A stretch of DNA of 64,000 nt, from assembly GCA_021732415.1 (NCBI GenBank), contig JAKFVC010000064.1:1-64000 (forward strand), written 5' to 3'. The notes under the pieces are model-generated. The model made no database searches and was not told where the DNA came from. It worked only from the letters and a program-made list of their open reading frames with translations. Shown here piece after piece: positions 28,744-35,567 of this stretch; position 1 is the stretch's first letter; each line of letters starts with the position of its first letter. This DNA is from Planctomycetaceae bacterium (GTDB taxonomy: Bacteria; Planctomycetota; Planctomycetia; Planctomycetales; Planctomycetaceae). The translations under genes and the position numbers were made by a program.

Positions 28744-31700
28744 TTACACCAACGTCACCATCTTCGTCGCCGGCGCGGTTGTGTGGTGTGCTGAATCAGT
28801 CGCCCTGAACTGAATCGACCGTGTCCCGGCGGGCGTCTTCTTGCTCTTATTGGAATACCCAATCTGACGTACCAACTGCTGCACGGCTGCGGTCGTCGCG
28901 CTGGCATTCAAGGTAATCGTCAACGTAGAACCTTTCGTCCCGCCGGCTGACTTGCCGATGATTGTCCCGTTGTAGAGCACATTTTTGCCCTTCAACGTGA
29001 TACCACCTCCCGCTGCAACTTTCAGGAGGTCGGTCTTAATGCCGCCCTGGGAAATCGAGGCCGTGACCGAACCTCCCGCAAAATTAAGGCTCGGGGTATC
29101 GGGATCACTGACTGTGGCTCCGGCACCCGGCAGCACAGGGGCCGCACGTCGAGTGTAAGTGGCTGCCCCGGCCGGCAAGGTAATTGCTAACGGCTCGTCA
29201 ACGTTCGTCAGATTGATCATCACCGTGGCCGATTTCGACGCCACCGGGCTGCCATTATCTGTAACTTGTACCGTCAGATTGAAAGACGGCGTGGTCTCAA
29301 AGTTCAGCACGCTAGAATTCGTAACGGTGATCTGCCCGTTCGACGAATTGATGCTGAAGGCCCCTGACACAGTGCCCCCAGTAATGGCATACGTCAAGGA
29401 CTGACCAGCATCGGGATCGAAGGCCACAACCGTCCCCACCACTGATCCATCGCCAGAATTCTCGGCCAGATTGAAGCTCTGGTTGGAGATCGTCGGCGCC
29501 TGATTCGTGGGGGCCGCGGTGACAGTAATCGTGATCGTCGCTTCAGTGAATTGAGACGGACTGCCATTGTCAGTCACGCGAACTACCACCGAAAACTGTG
29601 GATTCACGTCATGATCGAGAGCCGCCGAATTGGACACGACCAGCTGGCCTGTCGTCGAATTCAATGAGAAAGCGTTAGACGTGTTTCCGCTCTGTATTTC
29701 ATACGTCAAGGTCTGCCCGGCATCGGGATCGGACGCGATGACCGTCCCCACGACGGAATTGTTCGCAGAGTTCTCGACCAGGCTGAAACCCTGGTTCGAA
29801 ATCGTGGGGGCCTGATTGGGCGGCGCTGGATTGACGGTGATTGTGATTGTCGCGTCCGTAAACAGCGGCGCACTGCCACTATCGGTCACTCGCACCACGA
29901 GCGAAAATGTCGGATTAATGTTGGGATCCAAAGCCGCAGCATTCGCCACGACGAGCTGCCCCGAGGACGCGTTCACAGAAAACGCACCCGACGTGCTCCC
30001 GCTTTGAATTTGATAGGTCAACGTCTGTCCGAAATCGGAATCCGTTGCACTCAACGTACCAACCACCGTCCCATTGGCTGCGTTCGCACCCACTGAAAGC
30101 TGAGCGTTAGAAAAACTCGGAGCATGGTTCGGCCCCGTACCAGCCACATCAGACATCAACTCGACGCCGTGTACGCCGTCATCCGCCGCGAAGACCAGTG
30201 ATGTCCCAAAGCTCGTAAAGCCACCCGGAATCGAGCCGGCGGCTCCCGGATTGAGATCCGCGACCAGTTGCGTGCCCGCCGCAGTTCCGGTGGACATCCA
30301 GGGTTCATCGCCATGAGTTCCATCATTGGCGGCGAAGTAGAGGACACCATTCACATTCGCCAACTTGGTAGGAAAACTGCTGCCGTCACCGGGCTGCACA
30401 TCGTCAACCAATTGCGTCGTTCCCGCGGTGCCACTCGACTTCCACAATTCGACACCGTGTACACTATCGTTGGCGACAAAATAAAGCAGCCCATTCACAT
30501 CGGTCAGATGTGCCGGCGATGATGATGCCGAGCCAGCGATGACATCCTTGACTAGCACGGTTCCGGCCGACAACCCGTTACTGACCCACAATTCCGCCCC
30601 ATGCGACCCGTCATCGGCCACGAAGTAGAGTTTCCCATTCGAAGCGGTCAATTCACGCGGAGCCGAACCCACGGCGCCGGCCTGAATGTCGAGGACCTGC
30701 TGGGTATTTCCCGCGGCCCCGCTGCTGATCCATAACTCAACACCGTGAGACCCATCTGTCGCGACAAAATACAGGGTGCCGTTGACATCAGTCAGTTGGG
30801 CCAGTTGAGCATCCCCCGAGGGGTTCACATCGGCCACCAGCAGCGTCCCGTTGGCTGTGCCGTCCGACTTCCAAAGCTGATCGCCGTTGGCTCGGAAATA
30901 GAGTGTTGTTCCGACAGCGACCAGGTCTGCCGGTGAGGAACTTCCGCCCCCGTCAACGATATCCGCCACCCGCACAGTACCGTCCAGCGTGCCATCGCTC
31001 GTCCACAGTTCGCGGCCGGAGGCATCGTCGGTGGCGATAAAGTACAGCGCCCCATTAAAGTTCACTAAATCCAGAGGGTCGGAACTTAAGACTCCCGGAT
31101 TGACATCTTTAACAATCACGGTACCGACTGCAGTGCCATCGGTCATCCACAGTTCGCGGCCCAGTGACCCACTATTGGCGGTGAAATAAATCGTGTCATT
31201 GATGCGCACAAAATCGGCTGGAGCCGAGCCCAGGGTTCCTGTGTTCGCATCGACAAGCAGCAGCGAACTACTCGCAATGCCCGTGCTGAACCAGATCTCA
31301 TTGCCATGACTGCCGTCATTCGCCGCGAAGACAATGCCCCCCGGAGCACTCGTGATGGCGGACGGATACGAACCGACAGTCACCGGATTCACATCCTTGA
31401 CGAGCTGCGTGCCACTGACCGTGCCATCGCTGCTCCACAGATCCAGCCCATGTGTACCGTCATCTGATGAGAACAGGACAATACTATTGAATGCCCCGAA
31501 AACGGCAGAATGGACGTCGCTGGAACTGCCTTGGACTCCGGGCCGGATATCGCGAACCAACTGCGTCCCACCGACGGTCCCATCTGACTTCCACAGTTCG
31601 CGTCCATTCGCCCCATCATCGGCCGTGAAGTAAAGCGTACTGCCGACCACCCGCAGTCCGTCGGGAGTACTGCCGGTGGCGTTGGGAAAGATGTTCTTGA

Positions 31701-32871
31701 GCATCGCCGTGCCGACCGTGGTGCCATTACTCGTCCACAGCTCGGCGCCATTCACTCCGTCGTCCGCCACAAAAAAGAGCTGGCCTTGAAAGGCCACCAA
31801 ATTCGTCTGCGACGATCCCGTGGCCCCCGATTGCACATCGGAAACCAGCATTGTTCCGCCGACACTCCCGTCGCTCTTCCACAATTCTTGTCCTGCGGCA
31901 TTCGTGGTCGCCACGAAGAACAGCGTGCTGCCGACGGCAGTCAACGAATGGGGATCGGAACTGGTCCCGCCCACGATGATATCCTTGACCAGCGCAGTGC
32001 CGGCAGCCGTACCATCGGTCTTCCAGAGCTCATCACCGGCCGCCCCATTGTCGGCAACGAAATACAACGTGGTCGCAGTCGCCGCGAGATGATCGGCGTC
32101 AAAGTGGGTGATCGCATCGGCACCCGGCTGCACTGCCTTCAACAGCGTTGTCCCGACGGTTGTGCCGTTGCTGGTCCACAACTGGGTACCGGCGGCGGCA
32201 CTTTGGCGGGCGGCGAAGATCAGACTGCCGTTGAAGCTGACAAGTTGAGTGTTCGCATCGATGGAATCTCCCGCGGGATTCAAATCGGTGATCCGCGTGG
32301 TGCCGCCAGCCGTGCCGTCACTCTTCCAGAGTTCGCGGCCGTGAGACCCATCGTCCGCCGTGAAGTACAATTTCCCATTGAAGTTGACAAGTCCACTTGG
32401 AGCGCTGCTGGAATAGGCGTCTCCTCCCTGCAAATCAGAGACGAGCTGCGTTCCACCTTCGGTCCCGTCTGACTTCCAAAGTTCGGTCCCATTGATCCCG
32501 TCGTCAGCCGTGAAAAACAGGATCCCCCCGACGTTGGTTAACTGACTGGGATAGGAGCCCGCATAGATGCCGCCGGTCGGATGAATGTCCTTGACCTGGA
32601 CCGTTCCGGCCGTCGTACCATCGGTCTTCCACAACTCGCGACCATGAACGCCGTCATCGGCCGTAAAGTACGTGAGACTGCCAATTTGCAGAAAATCTTG
32701 GGGATCGGAATCGCGGCTGATGACGTTGATATCATCGACGGGATGAATCGAGAGCAACATTCGCGGTTCGCAGCGTTCCGGCGCGCAGGAGACGGGCAGG
32801 GGGGAGATTCGACGGCAGGAACGGCGGCCGCGCAAGTTCGTCAGCCACTGTTTCCAACTAAATCCACGCAT
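28744..32871 (-). CDS. ELWxxDGT-repeat protein with cadherin-like modules (1375 aa)
   Basis: The N-terminus carries an Arg-rich stretch and CEPRMLLS, a LEPR-XLL motif of exported planctomycete proteins. Residues ~75-905 hold 17 recognisable ELWxxDGT-type repeats (ELWKTDGT, ELWKSDGT, QLWTSNGT and others, plus a degenerate VELMSD at the end) spaced about 48 residues apart, each preceded by a LYFVADDG-like strand; a beta-propeller or solenoid is likely. Three cadherin-like modules follow (~910-1230; ENSANNSVVGTV, DPDAGQ, VRVTDNGSP). A final ~145-residue domain rich in Gly, Thr and Ala completes it. Surface adhesion or matrix function is inference. The gene lies downstream of hemP on the same strand, across 275 bp. 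Confidence 0.92.
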   Translation of the reverse strand: MRGFSWKQWLTNLRGRRSCRRISPLPVSCAPERCEPRMLLSIHPVDDINVISRDSDPQDFLQIGSLTYFTADDGVHGRELWKTDGTTAGTVQVKDIHPTGGIYAGSYPSQLTNVGGILFFTADDGINGTELWKSDGTEGGTQLVSDLQGGDAYSSSAPSGLVNFNGKLYFTADDGSHGRELWKSDGTAGGTTRITDLNPAGDSIDANTQLVSFNGSLIFAARQSAAAGTQLWTSNGTTVGTTLLKAVQPGADAITHFDADHLAATATTLYFVADNGAAGDELWKTDGTAAGTALVKDIIVGGTSSDPHSLTAVGSTLFFVATTNAAGQELWKSDGSVGGTMLVSDVQSGATGSSQTNLVAFQGQLFFVADDGVNGAELWTSNGTTVGTAMLKNIFPNATGSTPDGLRVVGSTLYFTADDGANGRELWKSDGTVGGTQLVRDIRPGVQGSSSDVHSAVFGAFNSIVLFSSDDGTHGLDLWSSDGTVSGTQLVKDVNPVTVGSYPSAITSAPGGIVFAANDGSHGNEIWFSTGIASSSLLLVDANTGTLGSAPADFVRINDTIYFTANSGSLGRELWMTDGTAVGTVIVKDVNPGVLSSDPLDLVNFNGALYFIATDDASGRELWTSDGTLDGTVRVADIVDGGGSSSPADLVAVGTTLYFRANGDQLWKSDGTANGTLLVADVNPSGDAQLAQLTDVNGTLYFVATDGSHGVELWISSGAAGNTQQVLDIQAGAVGSAPRELTASNGKLYFVADDGSHGAELWVSNGLSAGTVLVKDVIAGSASSSPAHLTDVNGLLYFVANDSVHGVELWKSSGTAGTTQLVDDVQPGDGSSFPTKLANVNGVLYFAANDGTHGDEPWMSTGTAAGTQLVADLNPGAAGSIPGGFTSFGTSLVFAADDGVHGVELMSDVAGTGPNHAPSFSNAQLSVGANAANGTVVGTLSATDSDFGQTLTYQIQSGSTSGAFSVNASSGQLVVANAAALDPNINPTFSLVVRVTDSGSAPLFTDATITITVNPAPPNQAPTISNQGFSLVENSANNSVVGTVIASDPDAGQTLTYEIQSGNTSNAFSLNSTTGQLVVSNSAALDHDVNPQFSVVVRVTDNGSPSQFTEATITITVTAAPTNQAPTISNQSFNLAENSGDGSVVGTVVAFDPDAGQSLTYAITGGTVSGAFSINSSNGQITVTNSSVLNFETTPSFNLTVQVTDNGSPVASKSATVMINLTNVDEPLAITLPAGAATYTRRAAPVLPGAGATVSDPDTPSLNFAGGSVTASISQGGIKTDLLKVAAGGGITLKGKNVLYNGTIIGKSAGGTKGSTLTITLNASATTAAVQQLVRQIGYSNKSKKTPAGTRSIQFRATDSAHHTTAPATKMVTLV

Positions 32872-33146: not shown

Positions 33147-33383
33147 CTATTTGTGAAGAATCAACTTCCCTTGCCGGGTCACCGAGAGGCGATAAATCTC
33201 ATCGCCATGAATGATCTGGAGCTCTCGATCACCGTGGAGCAGCGTTTCTGATCGGACTTGTCGCGGTTGTTTGATGCCACTTCCGGTGATCGGGGCCGCT
33301 GGAACGGGGACACTGGTGCCTCCCGCCGATTGTGGATTTTCTGTGCTTTTATCCGGAGTTTGAGGGGTTTCGGACGGTGTCAT
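33147..33383 (-). CDS. hemP: Hemin uptake protein HemP family
   Basis: The 78-residue protein has a disordered Pro/Ser/Thr-rich first half and a C-terminal half matching the small HemP family almost throughout: SETLLHGDRELQIIHGDEIY, then RLSVTRQGKLILHK. HemP proteins are linked with haem/iron uptake loci and are typically repressed by Fur; their biochemical role is poorly defined. The gene is divergent from the DUF4198-Kelch gene, with a candidate Fur-type operator inside its predicted promoter (33450-33510). The 5' leader would be about 90 bases. There is no TonB receptor or haem ABC transporter in the window. Confidence 0.9.
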   Translation of the reverse strand: MTPSETPQTPDKSTENPQSAGGTSVPVPAAPITGSGIKQPRQVRSETLLHGDRELQIIHGDEIYRLSVTRQGKLILHK

Positions 33384-33449
33384 GAGAACGTCTCTCCGCG
33401 TGCGAAGTCGTCGGGTACTGTGGATTCGGTCATTTTGAGTCGGTGGCGA

Positions 33450-33510
33450 TTGACATCCTGCCGTCGGCCATCTATGCTCGTACTGTAATGAGACTGAGTC
33501 TCAGTTTCAA
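33450..33510. promoter_or_regulatory. Overlapping divergent promoters sharing a Fur-like 7-1-7 palindrome
   Basis: The 15-base sequence TGAGACTGAGTCTCA at 33489-33503 is a perfect 7-1-7 inverted repeat, the architecture of Fur-family operators (TGATAAT-N-ATTATCA), matching that half-site at five of seven bases. On the minus strand, TTGAAA (33505-33510) and TACAGT (33482-33487) are separated by exactly 17 bases and the palindrome sits in that spacer, upstream of hemP. On the plus strand, TTGACA (33450-33455) and TATGCT (33473-33478) are also 17 apart, placing the palindrome just after the expected start of the DUF4198-Kelch transcript. RNA polymerase could not occupy both promoters at once, and one bound repressor could shut both. 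The promoters are predicted from sequence only. Confidence 0.7.
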
Positions 33511-33773
33511 CTCGAATGCTCGGCAGCCAGCTTATTGTCCGCATTTGGAGTGCGATGAATCTCGGATCAACCCGACGTGCGCTTCCAAATGGTCTCGGTA
33601 TAGAGCGAGCCCCCTTGTGCGTGATTCAGGTCATCCTGGCACCCTGAATCTGTCTGCGCCGGCTGGTCTCCACTTCTGCAGGAGACCGCAGCATTCCCAA
33701 AAACGCCACCACGTGGATTCACGCTGACTGAACCTGACCGCCTAACAAATCCCCATTCAGGAGACTGCTGCCC

Positions 33774-35426
33774 ATGTTGTTTCGTCCCCTTGTCGCCATG
33801 TTGCTCGCCAGCCTGATCTGGTTGGCAGCCACGCCTGCTCAAGCTCACTTCCTGTGGATCTGGCAAACGAAAACGGAGTCTGGCGCTCCGGTCGTTCAAG
33901 CCCATTTCAGTGAAGCGGCTGATGACCCCGAACCCGAGTTATTGAAGCGACTCGAAGGCCTGCAGGTCTGGCATCGTCCGTCCGCCGGCGACGTCCAGGC
34001 CCTCGAGGTCAAGCAAACTCCGGAAGCATTTGAGATTGCCCTCCCCACTAAGCTCGACCCCGAGCATCCCGGCATCATCATCACCGAGAAGAACTTCGGT
34101 GTCACGGGCCGCGGCGATGTCAAATTCCTGTTGCAGTACTACGCCAAGCTTTATCCCGGCAATATCACCGATGCCGCGAAGCTCGGGGCGTCGAAGCAAT
34201 TGCGATTGGATATCGTTCCGGTCCTCACGGGCAAGAAGCTGACTCTGAACGTCACCTGGGATGGGAAACCGGTCGCCGATTCTGAAGTCGTCGTCAAAGG
34301 CCCCGGGTTGAAGGGGGACAAGCTGAAGACCGACGCTCAGGGAGTGGTGTCGGTCGATCTGGCCGACGCAGGGCTGCTCGAAATTCGGGCGCGTCACATT
34401 GAGGCCAGGGCGGGCAAGTTGGAAGACAAGGACTACACGGAAATCCGCCACTATTGCACGGTGACCTTGCCCTGGGCCGGTGCCGACAAGACCACCGCCA
34501 GCGTGGCCGCGCCTGCCACCCCCGAATTGCCGTTGCTCCCCGAGGGACTCACCAGCTTCGGTGCTGCAGTCCACGGTGAGTGGTTGTATGTTTACGGCGG
34601 TCATCTGGCCAAGCCGCATCAGTATTCGATGGAGACCCAGTCGCCTCGTCTGCGACGCGTGAACCTCAACGCACCCACCGTGTGGGAAGACCTGGCCTCG
34701 GGCCCGCGGTTGCAGGGAGTGGCGATGGTCACGTGTGGCGATCGTCTGGTCCGCATTGGTGGATTCTCAGCGCACAACGCCGCCGGTGAAAAGCAGAACC
34801 TGTGGTCGGTCTCTGAAGTCTCGGCCTACAATCCGACCAGCAATCAATGGTCGAGTTTGCCGCCGTTGCCCGCTCCACGCTCGTCGCACGATGCCGCGGT
34901 GATTGGCAACACGATCTACGTAGCAGGTGGCTGGCAACTCCGGGGTTCTGACGGCAAACCCAGTTGGCACGACACGGCCTGGTCACTCGATCTTTCCGCA
35001 GAGAATCCTGCCTGGCAGCCGTTGGCGACGCCACCGTTTCAACGCCGCGCAGTGGCCGCGGCGGGTCTTGCTGGCAAGCTGTACGTGATCGGAGGTATGG
35101 AGAGTGATAACGGGATGACGACCGAAGTCGCCGTCTATGATCCAGCGACTCGCGTCTGGTCAGCAGGTCCGGATCTCCCCGGCAACGACAGCGAAGGATT
35201 CGGAGCCTCGGCCTTTGCCGTGGAGAACAAGCTGTGTGTCAGCACACGTAACGGTCAGTTGCTGAGCTTGCAGTCGGGCGCCGACAAGTGGGAGACATTA
35301 GGAGCTCTCAAGCACCCCCGATTCTTCCATCGCCTGTTGGCGGGTCTCCACCAGGACGTAATCGTCGTGGGCGGATCGGCCGCCGATAAGGTGAAAGAGC
35401 TAGAAGTGGTTGCCGTGACGAAGTAG
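33774..35426 (+). CDS. Exported DUF4198 - Kelch-repeat fusion protein
   Basis: A clear signal peptide (MLFRPLVAMLLASLIWLAA...PAQA) ends at an AxA site, so the mature protein would begin HFLWIWQTK, with His as residue 1. Residues ~25-245 resemble DUF4198, a periplasmic family related to Ni/Co uptake proteins, here with a carboxypeptidase-regulatory-like beta-sandwich (LTLNVTWDGKPVADSEVVVKG). Residues ~260-550 hold Kelch repeats (LYVYGGHL, LVRIGGFS, IYVAGGWQ, LYVIGGME, VIVVGGSA), which form a beta-propeller. AGGAGA nine bases upstream supports the ATG. The gene shares a putative Fur-type operator with hemP, suggesting an iron- or metal-responsive periplasmic role. The long leader (about 290 bases) contains a 7-bp hairpin GGTCTCC...GGAGACC near 33665-33688. 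Confidence 0.85.
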   Translation: MLFRPLVAMLLASLIWLAATPAQAHFLWIWQTKTESGAPVVQAHFSEAADDPEPELLKRLEGLQVWHRPSAGDVQALEVKQTPEAFEIALPTKLDPEHPGIIITEKNFGVTGRGDVKFLLQYYAKLYPGNITDAAKLGASKQLRLDIVPVLTGKKLTLNVTWDGKPVADSEVVVKGPGLKGDKLKTDAQGVVSVDLADAGLLEIRARHIEARAGKLEDKDYTEIRHYCTVTLPWAGADKTTASVAAPATPELPLLPEGLTSFGAAVHGEWLYVYGGHLAKPHQYSMETQSPRLRRVNLNAPTVWEDLASGPRLQGVAMVTCGDRLVRIGGFSAHNAAGEKQNLWSVSEVSAYNPTSNQWSSLPPLPAPRSSHDAAVIGNTIYVAGGWQLRGSDGKPSWHDTAWSLDLSAENPAWQPLATPPFQRRAVAAAGLAGKLYVIGGMESDNGMTTEVAVYDPATRVWSAGPDLPGNDSEGFGASAFAVENKLCVSTRNGQLLSLQSGADKWETLGALKHPRFFHRLLAGLHQDVIVVGGSAADKVKELEVVAVTK

Positions 35427-35439
35427 TGCTGAATGACGT

Positions 35440-35537
35440 GGGGTCGGGTCTACGATTTTTCGAAATTGGCTGTCAACGGCGTACGAACGCGCGGTTGACT
35501 CAATCAGCCAATTTCCAAAAATCGTGGCCCCGACCCC
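35440..35537. repeat. Inverted repeat 3' of the DUF4198-Kelch gene
   Basis: The 33-base arms at 35440-35472 and 35505-35537 (left arm begins GGGGTCGGGTCTACGATTTT) pair at about 29 positions around a 32-base loop. It starts 13 bases after the stop codon at 35426. No other copy is seen in the window. Confidence 0.88.
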
Positions 35538-35567
35538 TGATAGAAGGACGGAGAAGAGTTTTTTGCG

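Follow-up and report, generated by a model that had tools for sequence, protein, structure and literature searches.

The 64,000-nucleotide stretch of Planctomycetaceae DNA analyzed here (the window; contig JAKFVC010000064.1, forward strand) carries hemP divergent from a gene for a DUF4198-Kelch protein, and the region between them contains a predicted Fur box and an mRNA leader whose GCCAGC repeats probably make HemP a regulator of its divergent neighbor. hemP (33147..33383, minus strand) encodes a 78-aa protein that carries the PF10636 domain (55 bits, 5.9e-15) and the C-terminal KLILxK motif of the HemP/HmuP family (PMC9241770). Planctomycete HemP and Sinorhizobium meliloti HmuP share a TRQGKLIL core in an alignment (A7) from which rows L036 and L037 were excluded. 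The DUF4198-Kelch gene (33774..35426, plus strand), assigned from Pfam, a structure model, and alignments, encodes 550 aa comprising a signal peptide (33774-33845), a predicted mature N-terminal His (33846-33848), a DUF4198 domain (33846-34487), and a Kelch propeller (approximately 34521-35426). Both gene identities given in the original prediction for this DNA were confirmed by Pfam.

The palindrome TGAGACTGAGTCTCA occupies 33489-33503, pairs perfectly 7+7 about G33496, and has no other perfect copy anywhere in the window. Shifted from it by 6 bases is an overlapping 7-1-7 site, TGAGTCTCAGTTTCA (33495-33509), which has two mismatches, and together they form a 21-bp double array (33489..33509, no strand) that is predicted to be a Fur box from the palindrome analysis, genome counts, and target genes. 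Overlapping double 7-1-7 layouts are known for Fur sites. The predicted hemP promoter (33482..33510, minus strand) has its -35 element, TTGAAA, at 33510-33505 and its -10 element, TACAGT, at 33487-33482, and the 17-bp spacer between them contains the palindrome. The predicted operon promoter (33450..33478, plus strand) consists of TTGACA (33450-33455), a 17-bp spacer, and TATGCT (33473-33478), and the palindrome begins a few bases past its expected transcript start. The palindrome and its place relative to both promoters had been claimed before, and each was found exactly as described. Two congeneric genomes preserve the box, both promoters, and the beginning of the leader, and a comparison of 42 hemP promoters from the family places the box in the same register between TTG... 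and TA...AT, i.e., in the -35/-10 spacer. We infer that iron-loaded Fur would bind the box and repress transcription in both directions, because the site falls within the hemP promoter and shortly after the start of the operon transcript; iron starvation would then allow both hemP and the operon to be transcribed.

The 9.87-Mb genome from which the window comes contains four perfect TGAGACTNAGTCTCA sites. Across the family, 61 genomes together carry 70 copies of this palindrome and none of the reversed control pattern, which excludes chance as the source of its frequency. Forty sites away from hemP and the Kelch gene were fetched; they front DUF1559 genes (15), Bfd genes (15, with Bfr adjoining in most), FeoA/FeoB (6), a PQQ-ApbE pair (1), and unclassed genes (3). 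Since 37 of the 40 precede FeoAB, Bfd, DUF1559, or PQQ-ApbE genes, TGAGACTNAGTCTCA is very probably the Fur box of this family. Within the window's own genome, the box fronts hemP/DUF4198-Kelch, two DUF1559 loci (one with PepSY_TM), and a TPR-PQQ-Kelch-PQQ operon, and FeoAB and Bfd are preceded by a box with one mismatch. The same genome encodes Fur on contig C17 (PF01475, 91 bits), whose closest solved structures in the PDB are Fur proteins. The palindrome had been called Fur-like; its conservation in relatives, and the identical palindrome before FeoAB and Bfd genes, support that view well.

Three side observations concern Fur and its box. A 101-aa Fur paralogue precedes full-length Fur (G000:C17:74046-74744); it corresponds to the DNA-binding half alone and is possibly a partner of Fur or a decaying copy. 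The TPR-PQQ-Kelch-PQQ operon (L018 1321-5111, on G000:C80) has a perfect box, and its Kelch protein shares 51% identity with the Kelch half of the window's protein and lacks DUF4198. A large family of exported-looking proteins with an ADGPxDN-like start is divergent from Bfd under the box at six loci (L173, L177, L188, L196, L201, and L204).

The pairing of hemP with DUF4198-Kelch extends across the family. Among 120 genomes, hemP occurs in 79 and the DUF4198-Kelch protein (partial matches counted) in 74, and the two co-occur with an odds ratio of 16 (P 9e-8, not corrected for relatedness). The box is upstream of hemP in 42 of the 45 fetched loci (0-1 mismatch relative to TGAGAYTNARTCTCA); in two of the remaining three, hemP is downstream inside the operon, and the last one lies at the end of a contig. 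It is upstream of DUF4198-Kelch at 40/42 loci, many of them far from hemP, and at 23 of the 42 the two genes are divergent with a single box between them. The typical operon order is box, DUF1559 (with a prepilin-type N terminus), a small lipoprotein, and DUF4198-Kelch, often with a PQQ/BamB-like protein. One locus from the Pirellulaceae (L271 459-6475) runs DUF1559, lipoprotein, DUF4198-Kelch, a short open reading frame, hemP, and FeoB. Named isolates with a DUF4198-Kelch gene include Blastopirellula marina, Thalassoglobus neptunius, Lacipirellula limnantheis, and several Rhodopirellula species. The Lacipirellula limnantheis and Rhodopirellula loci are without this form of the box, and a search of the Rhodopirellula-type loci gave no alternative common 7-1-7 palindrome; a few further loci lacking the box have the close variants TGAGAATGATTCTCA and TGATACTCAGTATCA. 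Fur very probably controls both hemP and DUF4198-Kelch. Adjacency had been proposed as a check on the original prediction, and it is conserved; with the palindrome fronting FeoAB and Bfd as well, the proposal that the Kelch-DUF4198 protein belongs to an iron/heme starvation response is well supported by computed regulation. For the most part that proposal was correct, and it claimed too little.

Between the leader and DUF4198-Kelch, the window is missing two genes that its congeners have, DUF1559 and the lipoprotein. Alignment with the two congeners revealed what is left of the ribosome-binding site and start codon of DUF1559 (33676..33695, plus strand); here ATG has become ATT. A DUF1559-lipoprotein pair is found elsewhere in the genome (G000:C1:66888), preceded by the box variant TGAGATTGAATCTCA and a leader ladder of the kind described below, and would represent the partners of the DUF4198-Kelch protein retained under their own control elements.

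The DUF4198 assignment is based on a Pfam match above the cut-off (37.4 bits vs 34) and on the fold. Over its whole length, the model of the DUF4198 domain (pLDDT 95) matches Zcp, for which structures with Zn, Cu, and Co have been solved, and a DUF4198 protein with bound Ni (Z 18-20 over 191-202 residues, rmsd 3.0-3.5), with the next unrelated matches at Z 9. The second half of the protein is a Kelch propeller. In DUF4198-Kelch proteins, the signal peptide ends directly before an invariant His, which is the predicted mature N terminus; this position is suggestive of metal binding. A metal-related role in the periplasm or at the surface is likely, and there is precedent in Caulobacter, where lacZ fusions and binding assays showed DUF4198 operons to be Fur-regulated and two DUF4198 genes rank among those that Fur represses strongly (PMC3751524). 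The operon product would be an exported, probably metal-binding protein whose usual partners are a DUF1559 pseudopilin and a lipoprotein, and a role for the operon in iron or heme acquisition is likely. Immediately 3′ of the Kelch gene, an inverted repeat around GGGGTCGGG...CCCGACCCC (35437-35540) was partly scored as terminator-like. On the minus strand, the window also encodes a 1375-aa protein with 17 ELWxxDGT repeats and cadherin domains (28744-32871).

HemP proteins usually target TonB-dependent receptors. No TonB-receptor plug domain was detected in the window's own genome or in 62 of 82 good family genomes, under conditions in which positive-control genomes were matched. Among genomes with hemP, 54/69 have no detectable plug domain, so the usual target class is undetectable in them. 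The anticorrelation of plug domains with hemP or with the Kelch operon is weak (P 0.06-0.07), so replacement of TonB receptors by the planctomycete operon is only suggested. The four plug-domain loci examined in relatives had no Fur box of the TGAGACTNAGTCTCA type. A TonB-independent uptake route is adopted as a working hypothesis, in which the operon products may serve the capture or uptake of iron or heme at the cell surface.

The leader between the box and the first gene of the operon provides a candidate site for HemP. GCCAGC occurs between the box and the DUF1559 start in 51/55 leaders, in 105 copies compared with 2.6 in shuffled sequences and 3 on the antisense strand. What is new here is that these repeats mark the leaders of DUF1559/DUF4198-Kelch operons and not those of FeoA or Bfd: FeoA and Bfd leaders under the same box contain GCCAGC in 0/21 cases. 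In a larger set, two GCNNGC arms were present in 76/90 leaders (16 expected) and the full arrangement in 22 (0.3 expected), and in a fresh set of 13 operons and two hemP-DUF1559 loci, all 15 had the box and at least two repeats. The arms are able to pair as GC dinucleotides split by 2x2 CA/CA loops and closed by a covarying outer stem. Covariation was assessed on an alignment fitted to this ladder model and gave 24 double-change cells vs 6.5 in shuffles and a score of 0.124 vs 0.064 (both 0/500). From congener comparison and folding, the window's ladder spans 33516..33623 (plus strand), with the 5′ arm GGCAGCCAGCTT at 33522-33533 and the 3′ arm GAGCGAGCCCCC at 33603-33614; the leader has one exact GCCAGC and one degenerate copy, and its minimum-energy fold includes the ladder. 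The ladder loci matched no Rfam family at gathering score. A covariance model (R1) recovers only canonical ladders, and genomes were compared by repeat counts because R1 misses divergent ladders, including that of the window.

The same repeats are found in a published element. The HmuP-responsive element (HPRE) of Chromobacterium violaceum chuR, quoted as CCCGCAAGCCAGCCGACAGCCAGCCAGCG (PMC9131926), also adopts the ladder when folded (ensemble frequency 0.83, z -2.3). In that organism, the HemP homolog ChuP binds heme, showed no binding to the DNA tested, and is needed for full expression of chuR and vbuA (PMC9131926). The comparison with proteobacterial elements covers these two published sequences only, because the three rhizobial plasmid hemP loci examined have no receptor gene. 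Planctomycete leaders share with HPREs the GCCAGC-type direct repeats in the target's 5′ leader and differ in fronting DUF1559 or DUF4198-Kelch; with no TonB-dependent heme or siderophore receptor gene downstream, the element is termed HPRE-like and not filed as an HPRE. Its repeats also follow hemP itself: at least one is present in 39/40 family genomes with hemP and in 3/8 without it (P 2e-4). HemP is thus likely, on this genomic evidence, to act through the operon leader. It would bind the leader RNA via the GCCAGC repeats and raise expression, and the hairpin of GC pairs split by CA/CA mismatches would be the planctomycete version of the HPRE. Taken as a whole, a two-layer switch in which Fur represses and HemP activates an iron/heme acquisition system is a reasonably probable account of the locus.

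Several findings weigh against this account. The 3′ arm in the window is degenerate (GCGAGC) and is missed by R1. Ladder fold energies are no better than those of shuffled sequences (mean z -0.4; window z -0.8). The inner GC pairs are almost invariant and therefore contribute no covariation, and the leaders were drawn from related genomes, so the cases are not independent. No ladder forms in the fold of the published vbuA HPRE, and the sign and mode of action of HemP family proteins vary among species (PMC9131926, PMC9241770). Three hemP-less genomes, two of them incomplete assemblies, retain one repeat, and plug domains are present in the 15 other relatives with hemP (15/69). For planctomycetes, a literature search gave no data on expression, binding, or phenotype, and no paper was found on iron regulation or HemP in these bacteria.

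The alternative that survives best, itself unlikely, accepts the Fur box and the iron response and holds that HemP is unrelated to the operon, with GCCAGC bound by another factor or acting alone on translation or mRNA stability. The link between HemP and the leader RNA is a correlation, the ladder energies are unremarkable, and the HemP mode of action is disputed, all of which would suit this explanation. However, the repeats match the published element and track hemP. In the complete, hemP-less genome G072, moreover, the box is retained together with the genes for DUF1559, the lipoprotein, DUF4198, and Kelch, yet GCCAGC is missing from the leader; the repeats are present in its congener G031. 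A very improbable alternative is that a FUR-family protein other than Fur (Zur, PerR, or Mur) or some different palindrome-binding repressor recognizes the site, and that the regulon responds to another metal or to oxidative stress. FUR-family sites look alike, a second FUR-family gene is present in the genome on contig C41, and matches to the DUF4198 fold include proteins with bound Zn, Cu, Co, and Ni, but the box targets are dominated by the iron and heme genes FeoAB, Bfd with Bfr, and hemP. That the box regulates hemP only and the Kelch gene is an unrelated neighbor is scarcely credible: the window's operator comes after the start of the operon, and its predicted promoters are consensus matches only, but DUF4198-Kelch loci far from hemP also have the box, and genome G026, in which the same operon is split, retains box and repeats before both halves.

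The proposed two-layer switch, with Fur acting at the DNA and HemP reading the mRNA, can be extended to a fuller reading that is offered tentatively, at somewhat under even chances. DUF1559 pseudopilins, the lipoprotein, and DUF4198-Kelch might together carry out TonB-independent uptake of iron or heme at the surface, with HemP recognizing the GC/CA-ladder hairpin; as part of the same tentative reading, the ladder would be a so far undescribed HPRE secondary structure common to Pseudomonadota and Planctomycetota, its target having changed. The evidence gives planctomycetes a predicted Fur box and a core iron regulon, and suggests how bacteria without detectable TonB receptors may acquire iron or heme. 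DUF1559 proteins number dozens per planctomycete genome, with 74 genes in Rhodopirellula baltica (PMC2754498), and have no settled function; a subset is tied here to iron. A foldable HPRE structure is also proposed, which makes the disputed mode of HemP (DNA or RNA) directly testable.

Among known systems, canonical Fur boxes resemble the planctomycete box in having two 15-mers at a 6-base offset, an operator inside the promoter, and Feo and Bfd targets. The planctomycete heptamer, TGAGACT, differs in being richer in G/C than the classical TGATAAT. The ZepA exoprotein system (PMC10957091) was considered as a counterpart, being an exported metal-capture protein under a FUR-family regulator that also occurs in PVC bacteria; it was set aside as a zinc system under Zur, and no relation of ZepA to the DUF4198-Kelch protein was found. 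The Fur-regulated DUF4198 operons CC3059-3063 and CC2193 of Caulobacter crescentus (PMC3751524, PMC12004947) likewise have an exported DUF4198 protein under Fur that is tied to iron assimilation, and PepSY-DUF2271-DUF4198-ApbE clusters (PMC8238504) have PepSY and ApbE-like genes, which are also found under the planctomycete box. In contrast to both, the planctomycete DUF4198 is fused to Kelch, follows DUF1559 and the lipoprotein, and is paired with hemP, and a TonB receptor was not found in the window's own genome. A regulatory parallel is HemP/HmuP/ChuP with the HPRE (Ensifer shmR and Chromobacterium chuR and vbuA; PMC9131926), which also combines a Fur-regulated HemP-family protein with a target whose 5′ leader carries GCCAGC direct repeats. 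The planctomycete system differs in its phylum, in targeting a DUF1559/DUF4198-Kelch operon instead of a TonB-dependent receptor, in having arms that can be separated by a long inner hairpin, and in the position of hemP, which either diverges from its presumed target or is not linked to it.
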